From contig JAJPKJ010000073.1 of NCBI GenBank assembly GCA_021323755.1, positions 1-53,463 on the forward strand: a stretch of DNA of 53,463 bases, in the 5' to 3' direction. A model generated the notes under the pieces. That model saw only the letters and a program-made list of their open reading frames with translations. It did not search any database and had not been told where the DNA came from. This DNA comes from Chitinophagales bacterium. Lineage in GTDB: Bacteria; Bacteroidota; Bacteroidia; Chitinophagales; Chitinophagaceae. This document shows, piece after piece, positions 1,926 through 7,342 of this stretch. A program made the translations under genes and the position numbers. Within the stretch, counting starts at the first letter, position 1, and each line of letters starts with the position of its first letter.

Positions 1926-2654
1926 ATGGAAGAAAATAAAAACTCCGATAACGTAAATATTTCATTATTAAGCTCAATTGAAGCACAAAATAATGTACCT
2001 GAATCTAAGGATTTGGAAAAATCAGAAAGAGCCTTTAAATTTTTTAATAGTAGTATTAGGCGGGCGGAGAACTTATTGTCTATAAATATTGATAAGGATG
2101 GAAAGCTTCTAGCAATTCCTGAAAACAAGATTCTTGACTCTTATCGTGCTGTAATAGTTTTGTCCATTTCAGCATTAGATGCTTATGTAAAAACATTTTT
2201 AACAGTTGAAATAAAACAGAGACTTACAGAAAGGAATTTATCCGTAGAATTAAAGGCATATATTAAGGAAGATTTGTATAATAAGGACAAAGATTCTCTT
2301 TATCAAGTTATTTTTGAATCAAATTTTATTGAGATAATAATTGCAAAATTTGATGAAGATTTTGAAAAAAAATCTTTTCAAGGACAAAAATCTATAGACA
2401 AACATATGAAGCTTGCAGGATTTGATCAGATTTTCAAGAAGATTTCAAGGAGTGCTAATATAAGTCCTGATAATCTTCAAAGTGATTTAGAAAGGTTTAC
2501 CAATATGAGACATTCCATTGTACACTGTGGGGACCACGATCTTACTCAAACGGAACCAAAAGAGAATAAAATATCGGTCAAGGATGCAGAGGATTGCATT
2601 AAACTTGTCAAACTTATTTCATCTGAAATTCACAAAATGATACAAACAAGATGA
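1926..2654 (+). CDS. HEPN-domain protein, RiboL-PSP type, probable RNase
   Basis: The protein has 242 residues. The middle helix RAVIVLSISALDAYVKTFL (about 74-92) and the C-terminal NMRHSIVH (193-200) match the layout of RiboL-PSP/LA-1-like HEPN proteins. R195 and H200 form the Rx4H catalytic motif of HEPN ribonucleases. HEPN domains act as metal-independent RNases in toxin-antitoxin, abortive infection and CRISPR effector systems. No second domain is evident; the first 35 residues are polar and probably disordered. The TGA overlaps the ATG of the next gene (ATGA, 2651-2654), which points to translational coupling. Base composition is markedly AT-rich compared with the flanking cph region, a sign of transfer. 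The family call is by motif and helix pattern, and RNase activity is inferred from R/H conservation. Confidence 0.7.
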   Translation: MEENKNSDNVNISLLSSIEAQNNVPESKDLEKSERAFKFFNSSIRRAENLLSINIDKDGKLLAIPENKILDSYRAVIVLSISALDAYVKTFLTVEIKQRLTERNLSVELKAYIKEDLYNKDKDSLYQVIFESNFIEIIIAKFDEDFEKKSFQGQKSIDKHMKLAGFDQIFKKISRSANISPDNLQSDLERFTNMRHSIVHCGDHDLTQTEPKENKISVKDAEDCIKLVKLISSEIHKMIQTR

Positions 2655-2941
2655 AGCAAATAATTATAGTTTTTGAATTTAAGCTTATAAACAATCAAAA
2701 GACAATCCAATTCAAGGATTTGATTAGAAGATATGGTACTTACGCTTTTATCACAAATAACTCTTGTATGATTTGGACAATTGCTGATGTTGTGTCGGTT
2801 AGAAATTTCTTAATGGCAGGGCTTGCATCCGATGATAAGTTGTTTGTTTCTGAAGTGTCTGCGCCTGCCGCTTGGTCACTAAGTCTGGCAAAAGAAGTAT
2901 CTGATTATATAATTAAAAATCTAAAGGAGAAGACTTTGTAA
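2651..2941 (+). CDS. Small SinR/Cas2-like ferredoxin-fold protein
   Basis: This 96-residue protein starts with the strand KQIIIVFEFK, then a helix, then strand YAFITNNSCMIWTI, a helix with VVSVRNFL, and DDKLFVSEVSAPAAW. That beta-alpha-beta-beta-alpha-beta order, with W-x-I before a VRxxL helix and a DDKLFV strand, is the pattern of SinR-family proteins, which are related to Cas2 and VapD-type ferredoxin-like folds. Some relatives are nucleases, others look structural. No clear Asp at the end of strand 1 is seen, so nuclease activity is uncertain here. It overlaps the HEPN gene by 4 bases and is followed 2 bases later by the PIN gene. It could be an antitoxin, adaptor or regulator of the two putative RNases; that is inference. 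Confidence 0.55.
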   Translation: MKQIIIVFEFKLINNQKTIQFKDLIRRYGTYAFITNNSCMIWTIADVVSVRNFLMAGLASDDKLFVSEVSAPAAWSLSLAKEVSDYIIKNLKEKTL

Positions 2942-2943
2942 AT

Positions 2944-4107
2944 TTGAATTTAAAAAAATCTCCGCGATTTAATATGGTTGCTCCAAAAAACAAACCCTTT
3001 CCGCAAAAATTAAAATTGATTTTCATAGACGCTAATATTTATTTGAGGTTTTTCGATACTAATTCCCAAGAATTCAAAAAACTTCTTAAATCAGTGAAAG
3101 AAATAAAGTCATACATTTTTATAACTGACCAAATAAAAAATGAGGTTACAAGAAATAAATTGGATGTTTTTCGTGCATCATTTGCCAATTATACTGGACA
3201 AATTAAAACCTTAAACGTTCAGTTGCCGGAACATTTAAATACTGATACTAATCCAACAATTAAACAGTGGAACAAAAAAACGAAAACATTGAACACACAA
3301 ATTTCTCAACAGCAACAAACATTGCAACACATTACCACACATCTCATTGACAAAATAAGCAATTCTACAGATAAAGTTTCTAAAACTCTTCATAAAATTT
3401 TTGCGAAAGCTCTGCCGCCTACTGAAGAACAAGTGTCTCGTGCCAAGAATCGGAAAGGTTTAGGTAATCCACCGGGGAAAAAAAACGATCCTATCGGTGA
3501 CCAACTGAATTGGGAACAATTACTCGAAGAAACGAAAACAATTAAGCATTTATGGATCATTGCTAACGACAAAGATTATATGTTTCAATTTAAAGAAAAA
3601 TGCTACTTAAATACGTTTTTGCTCGAAGAATTAAAAAAAAATAATCCATCCATTATTGTTGAATGTTACAATACATTGTCTTCTGGATTGAGCTCATTCA
3701 ATAATTCCGAAGCAGTAGCATCCTTGCCCAACGCGACAGAGTTAACGAAAATCAAAAATGAAGAAACTAATATCCCAAAGAAGTACCCATTCAGCAATGA
3801 TATATTTACACTTTCTCCCCGTGGTAGTGGTTACAGTGGGTACAGCGGATACATCGGATCCACTGGCTTCGATATATACGGCATTGCCAACCAGAACAGC
3901 GCTTCTACAGGCTATTCTCCAGAGCCCTACACAATTTATTCTTCAGAATTTCATCCAGGACTTTCAGCAAATTTTTTGCCTACATTCAAAAGTAACTGTC
4001 CCACCTGTGGTAGTCCTCTGATTAATATCTCATCGCAAAACGATGATGGATCATTCTCACCAAAACTTTATTGCGCAATCTGCCAGAAATCTTATGAAAC
4101 AAAATGA
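2944..4107 (+). CDS. PIN-like nuclease (DUF4935 type) with C-terminal zinc ribbon
   Basis: This 387-residue protein carries a PIN-like RNase domain in its first 230 residues: D29 in IFIDANIY, E67 in IKNEVTRNK, D186 in GNPPGKKNDPIGDQLNWE and D209/D211 in WIIANDKDY. This is the acidic set and the GNPPGKK...DxIGD signature of DUF4935 PIN proteins. A Gln/Thr-rich helical insert fills about 105-150. Residues 240-345 are low-complexity, with a Gly-Ser-Tyr repeat at 295-308. The end has CPTC (352-355) and CAIC (377-380), a likely zinc ribbon for nucleic-acid or protein binding. The TTG at 2944 keeps a 2-base gap from the previous gene; the ATG at 2974 is an alternative. Domain architecture is visible; RNA cleavage is inferred from the family. 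Confidence 0.7.
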   Translation: MNLKKSPRFNMVAPKNKPFPQKLKLIFIDANIYLRFFDTNSQEFKKLLKSVKEIKSYIFITDQIKNEVTRNKLDVFRASFANYTGQIKTLNVQLPEHLNTDTNPTIKQWNKKTKTLNTQISQQQQTLQHITTHLIDKISNSTDKVSKTLHKIFAKALPPTEEQVSRAKNRKGLGNPPGKKNDPIGDQLNWEQLLEETKTIKHLWIIANDKDYMFQFKEKCYLNTFLLEELKKNNPSIIVECYNTLSSGLSSFNNSEAVASLPNATELTKIKNEETNIPKKYPFSNDIFTLSPRGSGYSGYSGYIGSTGFDIYGIANQNSASTGYSPEPYTIYSSEFHPGLSANFLPTFKSNCPTCGSPLINISSQNDDGSFSPKLYCAICQKSYETK

Positions 4108-4499: not shown

Positions 4500-4513
4500 G
4501 CTTGTAATCATCG

Positions 4514-4584
4514 TTGCCCGACGAGGATTCGAACCTCGACAAACAGAACCAAAATCTGTCGTACTACCATTATACTATCGGGCA
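4514..4584 (-). tRNA. tRNA-Gln (anticodon TTG)
   Basis: Read on the minus strand, the 71 bases fold as a cloverleaf. The acceptor stem TGCCCGA pairs with TCGGGCA, the anticodon stem CAGA/TCTG encloses the loop TTTTGGT with anticodon TTG, and the T arm contains GGTTCGAATCC. The 3' CCA is not encoded. tRNA genes are common integration targets, and this one lies next to the AT-rich island. No duplicated tRNA 3' end is seen near 860-1290 by eye. Confidence 0.95.
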
Positions 4585-4669: not shown

Positions 4670-7342
4670 TTATGCTTTATCGTGCACTAGCTGCTGCCCG
4701 TTGACCGATGGTTGTTGAGCTGATCTTGTATCTTCTTCTTCTTTTAAATTTTTAATGAATTCAAGTGCATCAGGAACGACATCACACATGATGGTGATTA
4801 ATGATCCGGGTATTGCATTTTTATAAGCATGGATGATCGCATCTTTTTCCTTGTGAATGATCGTTAAGGGAATTTCTTTCTGCTTTGTCTCATTTATTCC
4901 TTCAACCAATAAGGATACGATCTCTTCGGCTGTGCGTCCCCGTAAGTTTTTATCCTGACGGATTATTATCTCATCAAAATGTCTTGCGGAGATCCTTCCG
5001 AGTTCCCGAATATCATCATCGCGCCTGTCACCCGTACCGCTGATGATGCCGATCTTCGGAGCGCCATCCATCTTGCTCACAAAATCACAGAGCAGTTCAA
5101 GTCCGGCAGGATTATGCGCAAAGTCAACCAGAAACTGAAAATGTTTGAACTGAAATAAATTCAGTCTCCCCGGAGTCTGCACCGGCGAAGGAATAAAAGT
5201 TTGCAGCGCCAACCGAATGTCCTCTACTTTAATATTTCTAAAAAGATAGGTAGAAAGGACCGAAGGCAATGTGTTCATCACATTATGGATCGCCTTGCCG
5301 CCGAAGGTCAAAGGAATTTCTGATACTTTTTCGATACGGATTTTCCATGTTCCTTTTAAAAGCGATATATATCCATTTTCGTAGACCGCTGCGATACCAC
5401 CATCGCCACAATGTTTTTTTATGCGCGGATTGTTTTCATCCATACTGAACAATGCGATATTACATTCTACATTATCCTTCATTGCATAAACCAGATCATC
5501 ATCAGCATTTAAAATGGCAAAGCCATGTTTATAGACCGTTTCGGGAACAACACTTTTTACTTTCGCCATTTGTTCCAGATTATCAATGCCGCCGAGGCCG
5601 AGATGATCGGCAGTTACGTTGGTGACAACCGCTATATCACAATTTGAAAATGCCAGGCCTGATTTTAATATCCCGCCACGCGCGCATTCCAGCACGGCGA
5701 AATCAACCGTGGGATCCTTCAATACAAACAAAGAACTTAATGGGCCCGTACAATCACCTTTCATCATCATTTGATTTTGAATATATACACCATCGGAGGT
5801 CGTATAACCAACCTTGTATCCTGCCGTTTTCACAATATGCGCCGTTAACCTCGCTGTCGTCGTTTTTCCATTTGTTCCGGTAATGGCGATGATCGGGATC
5901 CTGCCATTTGTCCCTTTTGGATAAAGCATGTCAACAACCGGTTCCGCGACATTTCTGGGCAGCCCTTCTGAGGGTTCAATATGCATGCGGAAACCGGGGG
6001 CTGCATTCACTTCCAGCACGGCGCCGCCATTTTCGGTTATGGGTAACCGTAAGTCCGGTGCCATGATATCGATCCCACAGATATCCAGCCCGATAATCCT
6101 GGCGATTCTTTCTGCCATAAAAATATTCACCGGGTGAACTTCATCCGTTACATCCGTGGAAGTGCCGCCGGTGCTGAGATTGGCTGTCGGTTTTAATAAT
6201 ACCAATTCATTTTTTGCAGGAATTGTTTGCAATGTATATCCTTTATCAACCAGCATCTTTTGGGTGAACTCATCGATTTTTATTTGCGTTAGTACTTTTT
6301 CATGACCATAACCGCGGCGCGGGTCTTTATTTGTTTCATCAACCAGCCATTGAATATCGTGAACCCCGTCTCCAACTACTGATGCCGGTGTTCTCAATGC
6401 CGCGCAAATAAATTTGGAGTTGATCACCAGTACACGAAAATCAAAACCGGTAATGAATTTTTCGCAGATAACACTACGTGAATATTTTTGTGCGGCGGCA
6501 AGCGCGGTCACAGCTTGCTCCCAATTCATGATATTTGTGGTAGCGCCTTTCCCATGGTTACCATCGATCGGCTTTAAGACGATGGGGTAACTGATTCTGT
6601 CAATGGCATCTTTCAACCCTTCTTCATTTCTTATTATCGTGCCGCGGGGTACAGGGATCTCGGCTGCTTCCAGGAGATTTTTTGTTTCCTCTTTATCGCA
6701 GGCGATATCCACAGCAATAGAAGAGGTAGTGCTGGCAATCGTTGCACGAATTCTTTTTTGATTCACGCCATAACCCAATTGCACCAGCGATTGCTTATTC
6801 AGTCGAATAAAGGGAATGCCGCGCTTCACGGCTTCATCAACAATGCAGGCGGTAGATGGACCCAGTCTGGTGTCCTCGCGAATTTCACGCAACTGCTGAA
6901 TATCTTCCTGCAGATCATAATCTATATTATCAGCGAGCGCTTGTGAGATCCTCACGGCAGCGCGAGCAGCATAAACGCCCGCATCTTCTTCCATATAACT
7001 AAACACCACATAATATTCCCCTTCTTTGCCTGTCCCGCGGGTGCGGCCAAAACCTGTGTCCATTCCGGCAAGCGTTTGCAATTCCAGTGCAATATGCTCG
7101 ATAACATGTCCCATCCAGGTTCCTTCCTCTACACGTTGAAAAAAACCACCAGGCTCGCCAACACTGCAACGATGTGCATACATGGAAGGGAATAATTTCT
7201 CCAACCTTTCTCTGAATTCTGCAATGGAATTCGTTGGGCGTTGTTCCATTTCCTCAAGATCGAGTTTCATCTGGATAAGTTTAGGACGGCGAATGCTCCA
7301 ATAATTCGGGCCTTTCAATACTTTGATTTCAATAATCTTCAT
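4670..7342 (-). CDS. cphA: Cyanophycin synthetase
   Basis: CphA builds multi-L-arginyl-poly-L-aspartate by ATP-dependent addition of Asp and Arg in the cytoplasm. The 890 residues show the known three parts: an N-terminal region (about 1-160), an ATP-grasp domain (about 215-475, with LKPIDGNHGKG and EVNAAPGF near 444-451), and a Mur-ligase-like domain from about 480 with the P-loop GTNGKT at 489-494. Length and order match CphA1-type enzymes. A short charged, Gln-rich tail ends the protein. It is divergently transcribed from the PLP-enzyme gene at 7524, and cyanophycinase lies 6.5 kb away on the other strand. Bacteroidota with cyanophycin genes are known but not typical, so this is a real metabolic trait of the strain. 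Confidence 0.95.
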   Translation of the reverse strand: MKIIEIKVLKGPNYWSIRRPKLIQMKLDLEEMEQRPTNSIAEFRERLEKLFPSMYAHRCSVGEPGGFFQRVEEGTWMGHVIEHIALELQTLAGMDTGFGRTRGTGKEGEYYVVFSYMEEDAGVYAARAAVRISQALADNIDYDLQEDIQQLREIREDTRLGPSTACIVDEAVKRGIPFIRLNKQSLVQLGYGVNQKRIRATIASTTSSIAVDIACDKEETKNLLEAAEIPVPRGTIIRNEEGLKDAIDRISYPIVLKPIDGNHGKGATTNIMNWEQAVTALAAAQKYSRSVICEKFITGFDFRVLVINSKFICAALRTPASVVGDGVHDIQWLVDETNKDPRRGYGHEKVLTQIKIDEFTQKMLVDKGYTLQTIPAKNELVLLKPTANLSTGGTSTDVTDEVHPVNIFMAERIARIIGLDICGIDIMAPDLRLPITENGGAVLEVNAAPGFRMHIEPSEGLPRNVAEPVVDMLYPKGTNGRIPIIAITGTNGKTTTARLTAHIVKTAGYKVGYTTSDGVYIQNQMMMKGDCTGPLSSLFVLKDPTVDFAVLECARGGILKSGLAFSNCDIAVVTNVTADHLGLGGIDNLEQMAKVKSVVPETVYKHGFAILNADDDLVYAMKDNVECNIALFSMDENNPRIKKHCGDGGIAAVYENGYISLLKGTWKIRIEKVSEIPLTFGGKAIHNVMNTLPSVLSTYLFRNIKVEDIRLALQTFIPSPVQTPGRLNLFQFKHFQFLVDFAHNPAGLELLCDFVSKMDGAPKIGIISGTGDRRDDDIRELGRISARHFDEIIIRQDKNLRGRTAEEIVSLLVEGINETKQKEIPLTIIHKEKDAIIHAYKNAIPGSLITIMCDVVPDALEFIKNLKEEEDTRSAQQPSVNGQQLVHDKA

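Follow-up and report, generated by a model that had tools for sequence, protein, structure and literature searches.

GhoS, the Cas2-fold antitoxin of the GhoST type V toxin-antitoxin system, acts by cleaving the mRNA that encodes a membrane toxin. Here we describe a three-gene cassette in which a small protein with a similar predicted fold is encoded between two predicted nucleases of the HEPN and PIN classes, at positions 1926-4107 of the window, by which we mean the whole 53,463-nucleotide stretch of Chitinophagales bacterium contig JAJPKJ010000073.1 that was analyzed. The likeness of the middle protein to GhoS is a match in fold, with no sequence homology shown.

Precedents also exist for the individual families. 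Ribo L-PSP-HEPN is listed as an active family distantly related to AbiF/AbiD, and HEPN proteins of the AbiF/AbiD neighborhood act in abortive infection (PMC3710099); PD-T4-5, a relative of AbiF/D that was discovered by experiment, gives abortive defense (PMC9519451). The first gene of the cassette resembles these in belonging to a HEPN family with the Rx4H motif, scoring above the PF18735 cut-off. It differs from the published Ribo L-PSP-HEPN entry, which describes an L-PSP fusion and a ParB operon (PMC3710099), in being coupled to a Cas2-like gene, and from PD-T4-5 in matching no PADLOC model, whereas a plasmid HEPN described below (locus L049) does match PD-T4-5. BPSL1038 is a nuclease of a Cas2/VapD sub-family (PMC10491678); the middle protein of the cassette differs from Cas2, VapD and BPSL1038 in sequence (9-12% identity), in having Glu9 instead of Asp, and in its HEPN and PIN neighbors. 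Earlier work also placed Cas2-like proteins next to genes of mobile elements and, together with HEPN proteins, in integron cassettes, but the accessible portions of those accounts name neither a HEPN–Cas2-like operon nor a PIN gene as its third member (PMC3506569, PMC3710099). Finally, the PIN RNases DS-3 and DS-5, found with DefensePredictor, were validated in defense, one of them without an antitoxin. They share with our cassette a PIN RNase, which in those systems is needed for defense, and the second partner in DS-5 is no simple antitoxin; that partner differs, being a DUF5830/AcrIF4-like protein, and the likeness of both systems to ours is one of description (PMC13092281). The cassette combines known effector families in a coupling for which we found no named system in the open-licence PMC literature searched. 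Its novelty is limited because non-CRISPR Cas2-like proteins have already been proposed as mobile-element toxins and noted beside HEPN genes.

With moderate confidence, we propose that the cassette is a probably acquired anti-phage module of an abortive-infection or toxin-antitoxin-like kind, in which the HEPN protein would be the effector, the Cas2-like protein its controller and the PIN protein an appended RNase. These roles are assigned from published HEPN and PIN defense proteins together with the anatomy of the cassette.

Architecture of the cassette

The cassette contains the following features:

1926-2654, + strand: HEPN protein, 242 aa, HEPN_RiboL-PSP family (Pfam PF18735), motif R195-x4-H200
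2651-2654, + strand: ATGA, stop/start overlap of the HEPN and Cas2-like genes, the same as at locus L010 of genome G292
2651-2941, + strand: small Cas2/VapD-fold ("SinR-like") protein, 96 aa, by predicted fold, with Glu9 where Cas2 has Asp
2944-4107, + strand: PIN-domain nuclease, 387 aa, acidic set D29/E67/D186/D209/D211 (Pfam PIN_12, PIN_8), TTG start uncertain
3997-4083, + strand: CxxC...CxxC tail of the PIN protein (CPTC, CAIC), zinc-ribbon-like by sequence

An earlier sequence-only reading of this DNA had described three genes joined by a 4-base overlap and a 2-base gap, and the coordinates, the ATGA and the AT at 2942-2943 that separates the Cas2-like and PIN genes bear this out. The ATGA likely couples translation of the first two genes. 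Profile searches, which that reading had named as the check on its domain calls, place genes 1 and 3 inside the HEPN and PIN families.

The first protein matches HEPN_RiboL-PSP with E 1.8e-9 (38.2 bits against a cut-off of 28.4). Its Rx4H residues, R195 and H200, are where they had been read and are invariant in 5/5 and 9/9 aligned rows, in alignments that both contain the window sequence and with three of the nine rows being near-identical viral copies. The predicted model is all-helical (pLDDT 81.8) with the motif within helix 181-201; comparison of this model with solved structures using Foldseek gave no match at E <= 0.001, which counts as no evidence against the fold. The gene 1 product is predicted to be a metal-independent endoRNase.

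No Pfam or NCBIfam family matches the second protein. Its AlphaFold2 model (pLDDT 84.9) has Cas2 topology, with Cas2 and BPSL1038 as the best solved structural matches (9-12% identity) and GhoS (2llz) further down at rank 28 (TMq 0.56). phrog_1090 matches the protein with E 4.8e-5 and the label "SinR" is found on some phage and plasmid records of its Cas2-like relatives, in agreement with the SinR/Cas2-like character first read from the strand pattern. At the end of strand 1, Glu9 takes the place of the catalytic Asp of Cas2. At this place 12/14 aligned rows have Asp, Glu being found in the window protein and L012, and Asp is present in all 16 relatives of alignment A6, which were fetched with a pattern containing YDL. 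We rejected an identification as CRISPR Cas2 proper, as there is no Pfam match and the neighbors are HEPN and PIN genes, the wider genome not having been searched for cas1 or CRISPR arrays; two Cas2-like relatives score 16.1 and 16.2 bits against Pfam CRISPR_Cas2, where the cut-off is 23.8.

The third protein matches both PIN_12 (E 2e-14, 54.8 bits against a cut-off of 32) and PIN_8 (E 1.1e-12, 48.8 bits against 26.1). The acidic residues D29, E67, D186 and D209 are all present as had been claimed, and together with D211 they are invariant in 4/4 aligned rows. The gene start is uncertain, with GGAG at 2926-2929 lying 14 bases before the TTG and an in-frame ATG at 2974. The zinc ribbon that had been proposed stands in part: the CPTC...CAIC tail is present, and a similar tail (CPVC...CSIC) is found in the PIN relative of G292, whereas zinc-ribbon profiles match the tail solely below cut-off.

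Recurrence of the HEPN–Cas2-like pair

The HEPN–Cas2-like pair recurs in the same order and with the same ATGA in G292, a genome of one other genus of the same family (locus L010; HEPN 41% and Cas2-like 36% identical to the window proteins). Because the same ATGA-coupled pair recurs in another genus, we consider it to be more than a chance juxtaposition. In place of a PIN gene, the next gene at L010 lies 225 bases on and encodes 352 aa, for which Pfam, PADLOC, NCBIfam and PDB sequence searches gave no identification; a SIR2 label suggested by GAGAS and GYGAPDTD stretches was dropped, having no library or PDB support. Viral contig L108 (IMGVR_UViG_3300031657_000561) stops precisely on the ATGA that closes a HEPN gene, whose product is 64% identical over residues 31-242 (61% in alignment A8), as expected if a Cas2-like gene follows beyond the contig. 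Searches of plasmids and phages with the window HEPN returned no relative, and viral contig searches with HEPN alignment A1, Cas2-like alignment A2 or the L063 HEPN returned none.

HEPN proteins of the window type are rare, with matches at E <= 0.001 in 4/296 phylum genomes and 5/394 family genomes and, using a three-row profile, in 2/260 order genomes; the wider Pfam HEPN_RiboL-PSP family is matched in 34/296 phylum genomes, 20 of them over cut-off. The identical HEPN–Cas2-like–PIN trio turned up in none of the other genomes searched, and the idea of one conserved three-gene system finds only partial support, the pair being the part that is conserved. Co-occurrence of the trio in other genomes, on which the sequence-only reading had staked its proposal, has a divided outcome: the pair is conserved in G292, and an analogous gene order is present on two plasmids.

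A ParA-like ATPase gene lies directly before, and overlaps, a RiboL-PSP-type HEPN gene at L016:483-2115, L063:492-2118 and L119:2956-4597 (the last viral), which may be a second type of HEPN pairing. For the RiboL-PSP-HEPN family, the HEPN survey of 2013 mentions a ParB operon.

PIN loci elsewhere and the plasmid gene orders

PIN relatives were followed at 24 loci outside the window (L004, L005, L006, L048, L049, L086-L089, L091-L102 and L181-L183), none of which matches the HEPN profile, itself a narrow one. Two of them contain a Cas2-like gene, both on enterobacterial plasmids: the Rahnella plasmid pHW114B (L048) and the Klebsiella plasmid pC51_006 (L049). On both, the Cas2-like gene is directly followed by a PIN gene (PIN_8), with a 28-base overlap on pHW114B and a 12-base gap on pC51_006, and is preceded by a 220-aa gene that ends 90 and 114 bases upstream, respectively. 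The matches of the 220-aa proteins to Abi_2 (E 2.6e-4 and 7.3e-5) and to HEPN_RiboL-PSP (E 0.0092 and 0.0038) fall short of the cut-offs, and the protein on pC51_006 matches PADLOC model PD-T4-5 with E 3.7e-16. The order HEPN, Cas2-like, PIN occurs with two different HEPN subfamilies. Relatives of this AbiF/D-type HEPN are on 764 plasmid records, and in four further records of the 220-aa gene (57-88% identical) a Cas2-like or PIN match near the gene was seen in 0/4, so that the plasmid HEPN may be a separate unit. The plasmid PIN proteins (L049:3155-4879, L048:4051-5929) bear long C-terminal repeats, and the annotation of pHW114B splits the gene into two parts that overlap and are read in different frames.

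Borders and base composition

Two features flank the cassette:

1409-1723, + strand: transposase fragment (integrase core) at the upstream border, 104 aa in frame (Pfam rve_3, E 2e-20)
4513-4584, - strand: tRNA-Gln(ttg) downstream (ARAGORN; Rfam RF00005 at 4514-4584)

The G+C contents of the three genes are 29.9, 33.0 and 34.5%, and each of the 30 other listed window ORFs lies above them (mean 42.1%, sd 2.5, minimum 36.4). The low G+C, the transposase fragment and the adjoining tRNA gene suggest that the cassette is probably acquired DNA. A search for attachment repeats around it found solely short or low-identity repeats. An empty-site test, in which the tRNA-flanking gene was matched in 5/12 genus genomes (the window's own and four weak, partial matches), gave no readable empty site. 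The large gene beside the tRNA (4670-7342, - strand) looks by eye like a cyanophycin synthetase, and its C-terminal part is poorly conserved within the genus.

The Cas2-like family at other loci

Using the G292 protein or alignment A4 as query, Cas2-like relatives were found in 85 plasmid records, 53 phage records, 17 genome loci and 61 viral loci. We surveyed the neighbors at 83 loci (26 chromosomal or plasmid, 4 phage records and 53 viral contigs), counting same-strand genes within 100 bases of the first Cas2-like match per locus, with ORFs of >= 60 aa and nine duplicate loci skipped (L051 was entered through its second copy). The survey missed 14 loci at which the gene lies under longer ORFs (three plasmid, three genome_contigs and eight viral); the PIN and HEPN counts are taken from a six-frame recheck, which located the Cas2-like gene in 61/61 viral and 17/17 genome_contigs loci. 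As the plasmid (11/85) and phage (4/53) records examined were hand-picked and have no matched control set, the defense neighborhood is to be read as a pattern and not as a rate.

A defense-type neighbor is present in 9/26 chromosomal or plasmid loci, the window included:

L001, L010, L048, L049: HEPN or PIN
L011: caspase
L061: type I specificity subunit
L070: TIR
L074: NsnB-like AAA ATPase
L080: type III Res

At L012 a defense-type gene, for an LmuB-like ATPase, is further off (157 bases), and at L078 Drt8- and UG17-like reverse transcriptases flank the Cas2-like gene with other genes between; in the remaining 15/26 loci no defense-type gene was recognized. HEPN or PIN profiles match in 0/61 viral and 0/17 genome_contigs Cas2-like loci.

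At L080:2430-7949 the Cas2-like gene sits inside a type III restriction system, between Mod and Res; it overlaps the preceding gene by 4 bases and ends 6 bases before Res, and an unassigned 209-aa gene separates it from Mod. At L078:1594-6925 the Cas2-like gene overlaps an unassigned 264-aa gene. At L011:3241-5701, in a genome of the same family as the window, two TIR genes, the caspase gene and the Cas2-like gene stand in a row in a Thoeris-like neighborhood. Two Cas2-like genes per stretch are found on viral contig L121:3986-4817 and on plasmids L051:3616-4255 and L057:1146-6254.

Proposed mechanism and alternative explanations

The core of the proposed module would be the translationally coupled pair, in which a HEPN RNase serves as effector beside a Cas2-fold partner. 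The latter, probably a dimer, would restrain the HEPN protein or license it once infection is sensed, which is the weakest step of the proposal. The PIN gene would be a second, normally separate RNase module that was appended and is here probably co-transcribed. Once activated, one or both RNases may cut tRNA, rRNA or mRNA so that translation stops; RNA as the target is suggested by analogy with other HEPN and PIN proteins. Of the two-nuclease defense or toxin module with a middle adaptor or antitoxin that had been proposed from the sequence, the domain calls and the pair stand; the identical trio was not found in the other genomes searched, and the role of the module is argued from families and context.

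Several observations weigh against our proposal. PADLOC models give no family for gene 1 or gene 2 even with matches up to E 10 allowed, and the matches of gene 3 (PbeC, E 2.2e-4 over residues 41-156; DpdD, 0.01; ZorA, 0.069) amount to no convincing system. Strong HEPN matches in the phylum, family and order sets are confined to the window genome and G292, and of 30 HEPN_RiboL-PSP loci from the 296 phylum genomes those of the same two (2/30) have a Cas2-like gene, indicating that Cas2-like coupling is no general trait of that family. With the window's own Cas2-like protein as query, 0 phage records and one plasmid record at E 0.09 were retrieved. Because Glu9 replaces Asp, Cas2-type catalysis by this protein is doubtful. 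Within 100 bases, 17/26 chromosomal or plasmid Cas2-like loci have no defense-type neighbor and 38/53 viral loci have no same-strand neighbor at all. Promoter-like sites number 13, against 13.1 expected by chance, and nothing resembling a terminator was detected at the cassette, so that co-transcription is tentative. The anti-phage or toxic action would itself follow by analogy. Finally, a six-frame search of the stretch examined finds no Cas2-like gene at 22/24 PIN loci, and the PIN relative of G292 (44% identical over residues 22-275), whose neighbors read as mobile-element genes, is at a separate locus from the pair, which stands there without a PIN gene.

These last two points also support the strongest alternative, that of two adjacent modules: a HEPN–Cas2-like system and, next to it, an independent PIN gene with no part in the function of the pair. 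This explanation is compatible with a defense role for each module, and we regard it as a real if tentative possibility. It is at odds with the 2-base gap in the window, though a chance-level promoter-like match lies inside gene 2 (2885-2913), and with the Cas2-like gene being directly followed by PIN on pHW114B and pC51_006 as well.

It is also possible, if rather unlikely, that the cassette is an addiction (stability) module of a mobile element, with a HEPN toxin and a Cas2-like antitoxin kept for retention of the element. Two overlapping genes with one small partner would suit such a module, as would an AT-rich stretch adjoining a tRNA gene and a transposase fragment, the occurrence of gene 2 relatives on small plasmids, GhoS among the structural matches, and the proposal that Cas2 homologues near resolvase or Mob genes are addiction toxins (PMC3506569). 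The many viral Cas2-like genes that have no close same-strand neighbor are unexpected for a dedicated antitoxin. In addition, the antitoxin gene usually comes first in classical toxin-antitoxin pairs, unlike here, where the HEPN gene does.

That the nuclease is the Cas2-like protein, in the manner of VapD or BPSL1038, with HEPN or PIN as partners or regulators, seems improbable: its fold matches Cas2 and BPSL1038 and Cas2-like proteins have been counted among toxin RNases (PMC3710099), but the key Asp, kept in most aligned rows, is Glu9 here. Decaying remains of no present function, as rarity in relatives and the adjoining transposase fragment might suggest, are most improbable given that all three ORFs are intact and that HEPN and PIN retain their catalytic residues.

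Implications

HEPN and PIN proteins are very common RNA-cutting effectors of bacterial conflict, but the means by which they are restrained are known in few families. The conserved coupling of a HEPN protein to a Cas2-fold protein, together with the presence of that protein's family beside unrelated effectors, raises the possibility of a common controller, one that is open to direct testing. In a broader and frankly speculative version, which we think unlikely, the small Cas2-fold protein would serve bacterial defense as a common and portable subunit, for control or sensing, that is combined with exchangeable killers; phages would carry the Cas2-like protein alone, perhaps as a counter-component occupying the control site, and the window cassette would represent a form with two effectors. 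The killers envisaged, in an equally long-shot grouping, would be HEPN, PIN, TIR, caspase, AAA ATPases, restriction enzymes and perhaps reverse transcriptases. A common Cas2-fold controller, if true, would also be relevant to the question of why there are Cas2 relatives beyond CRISPR.

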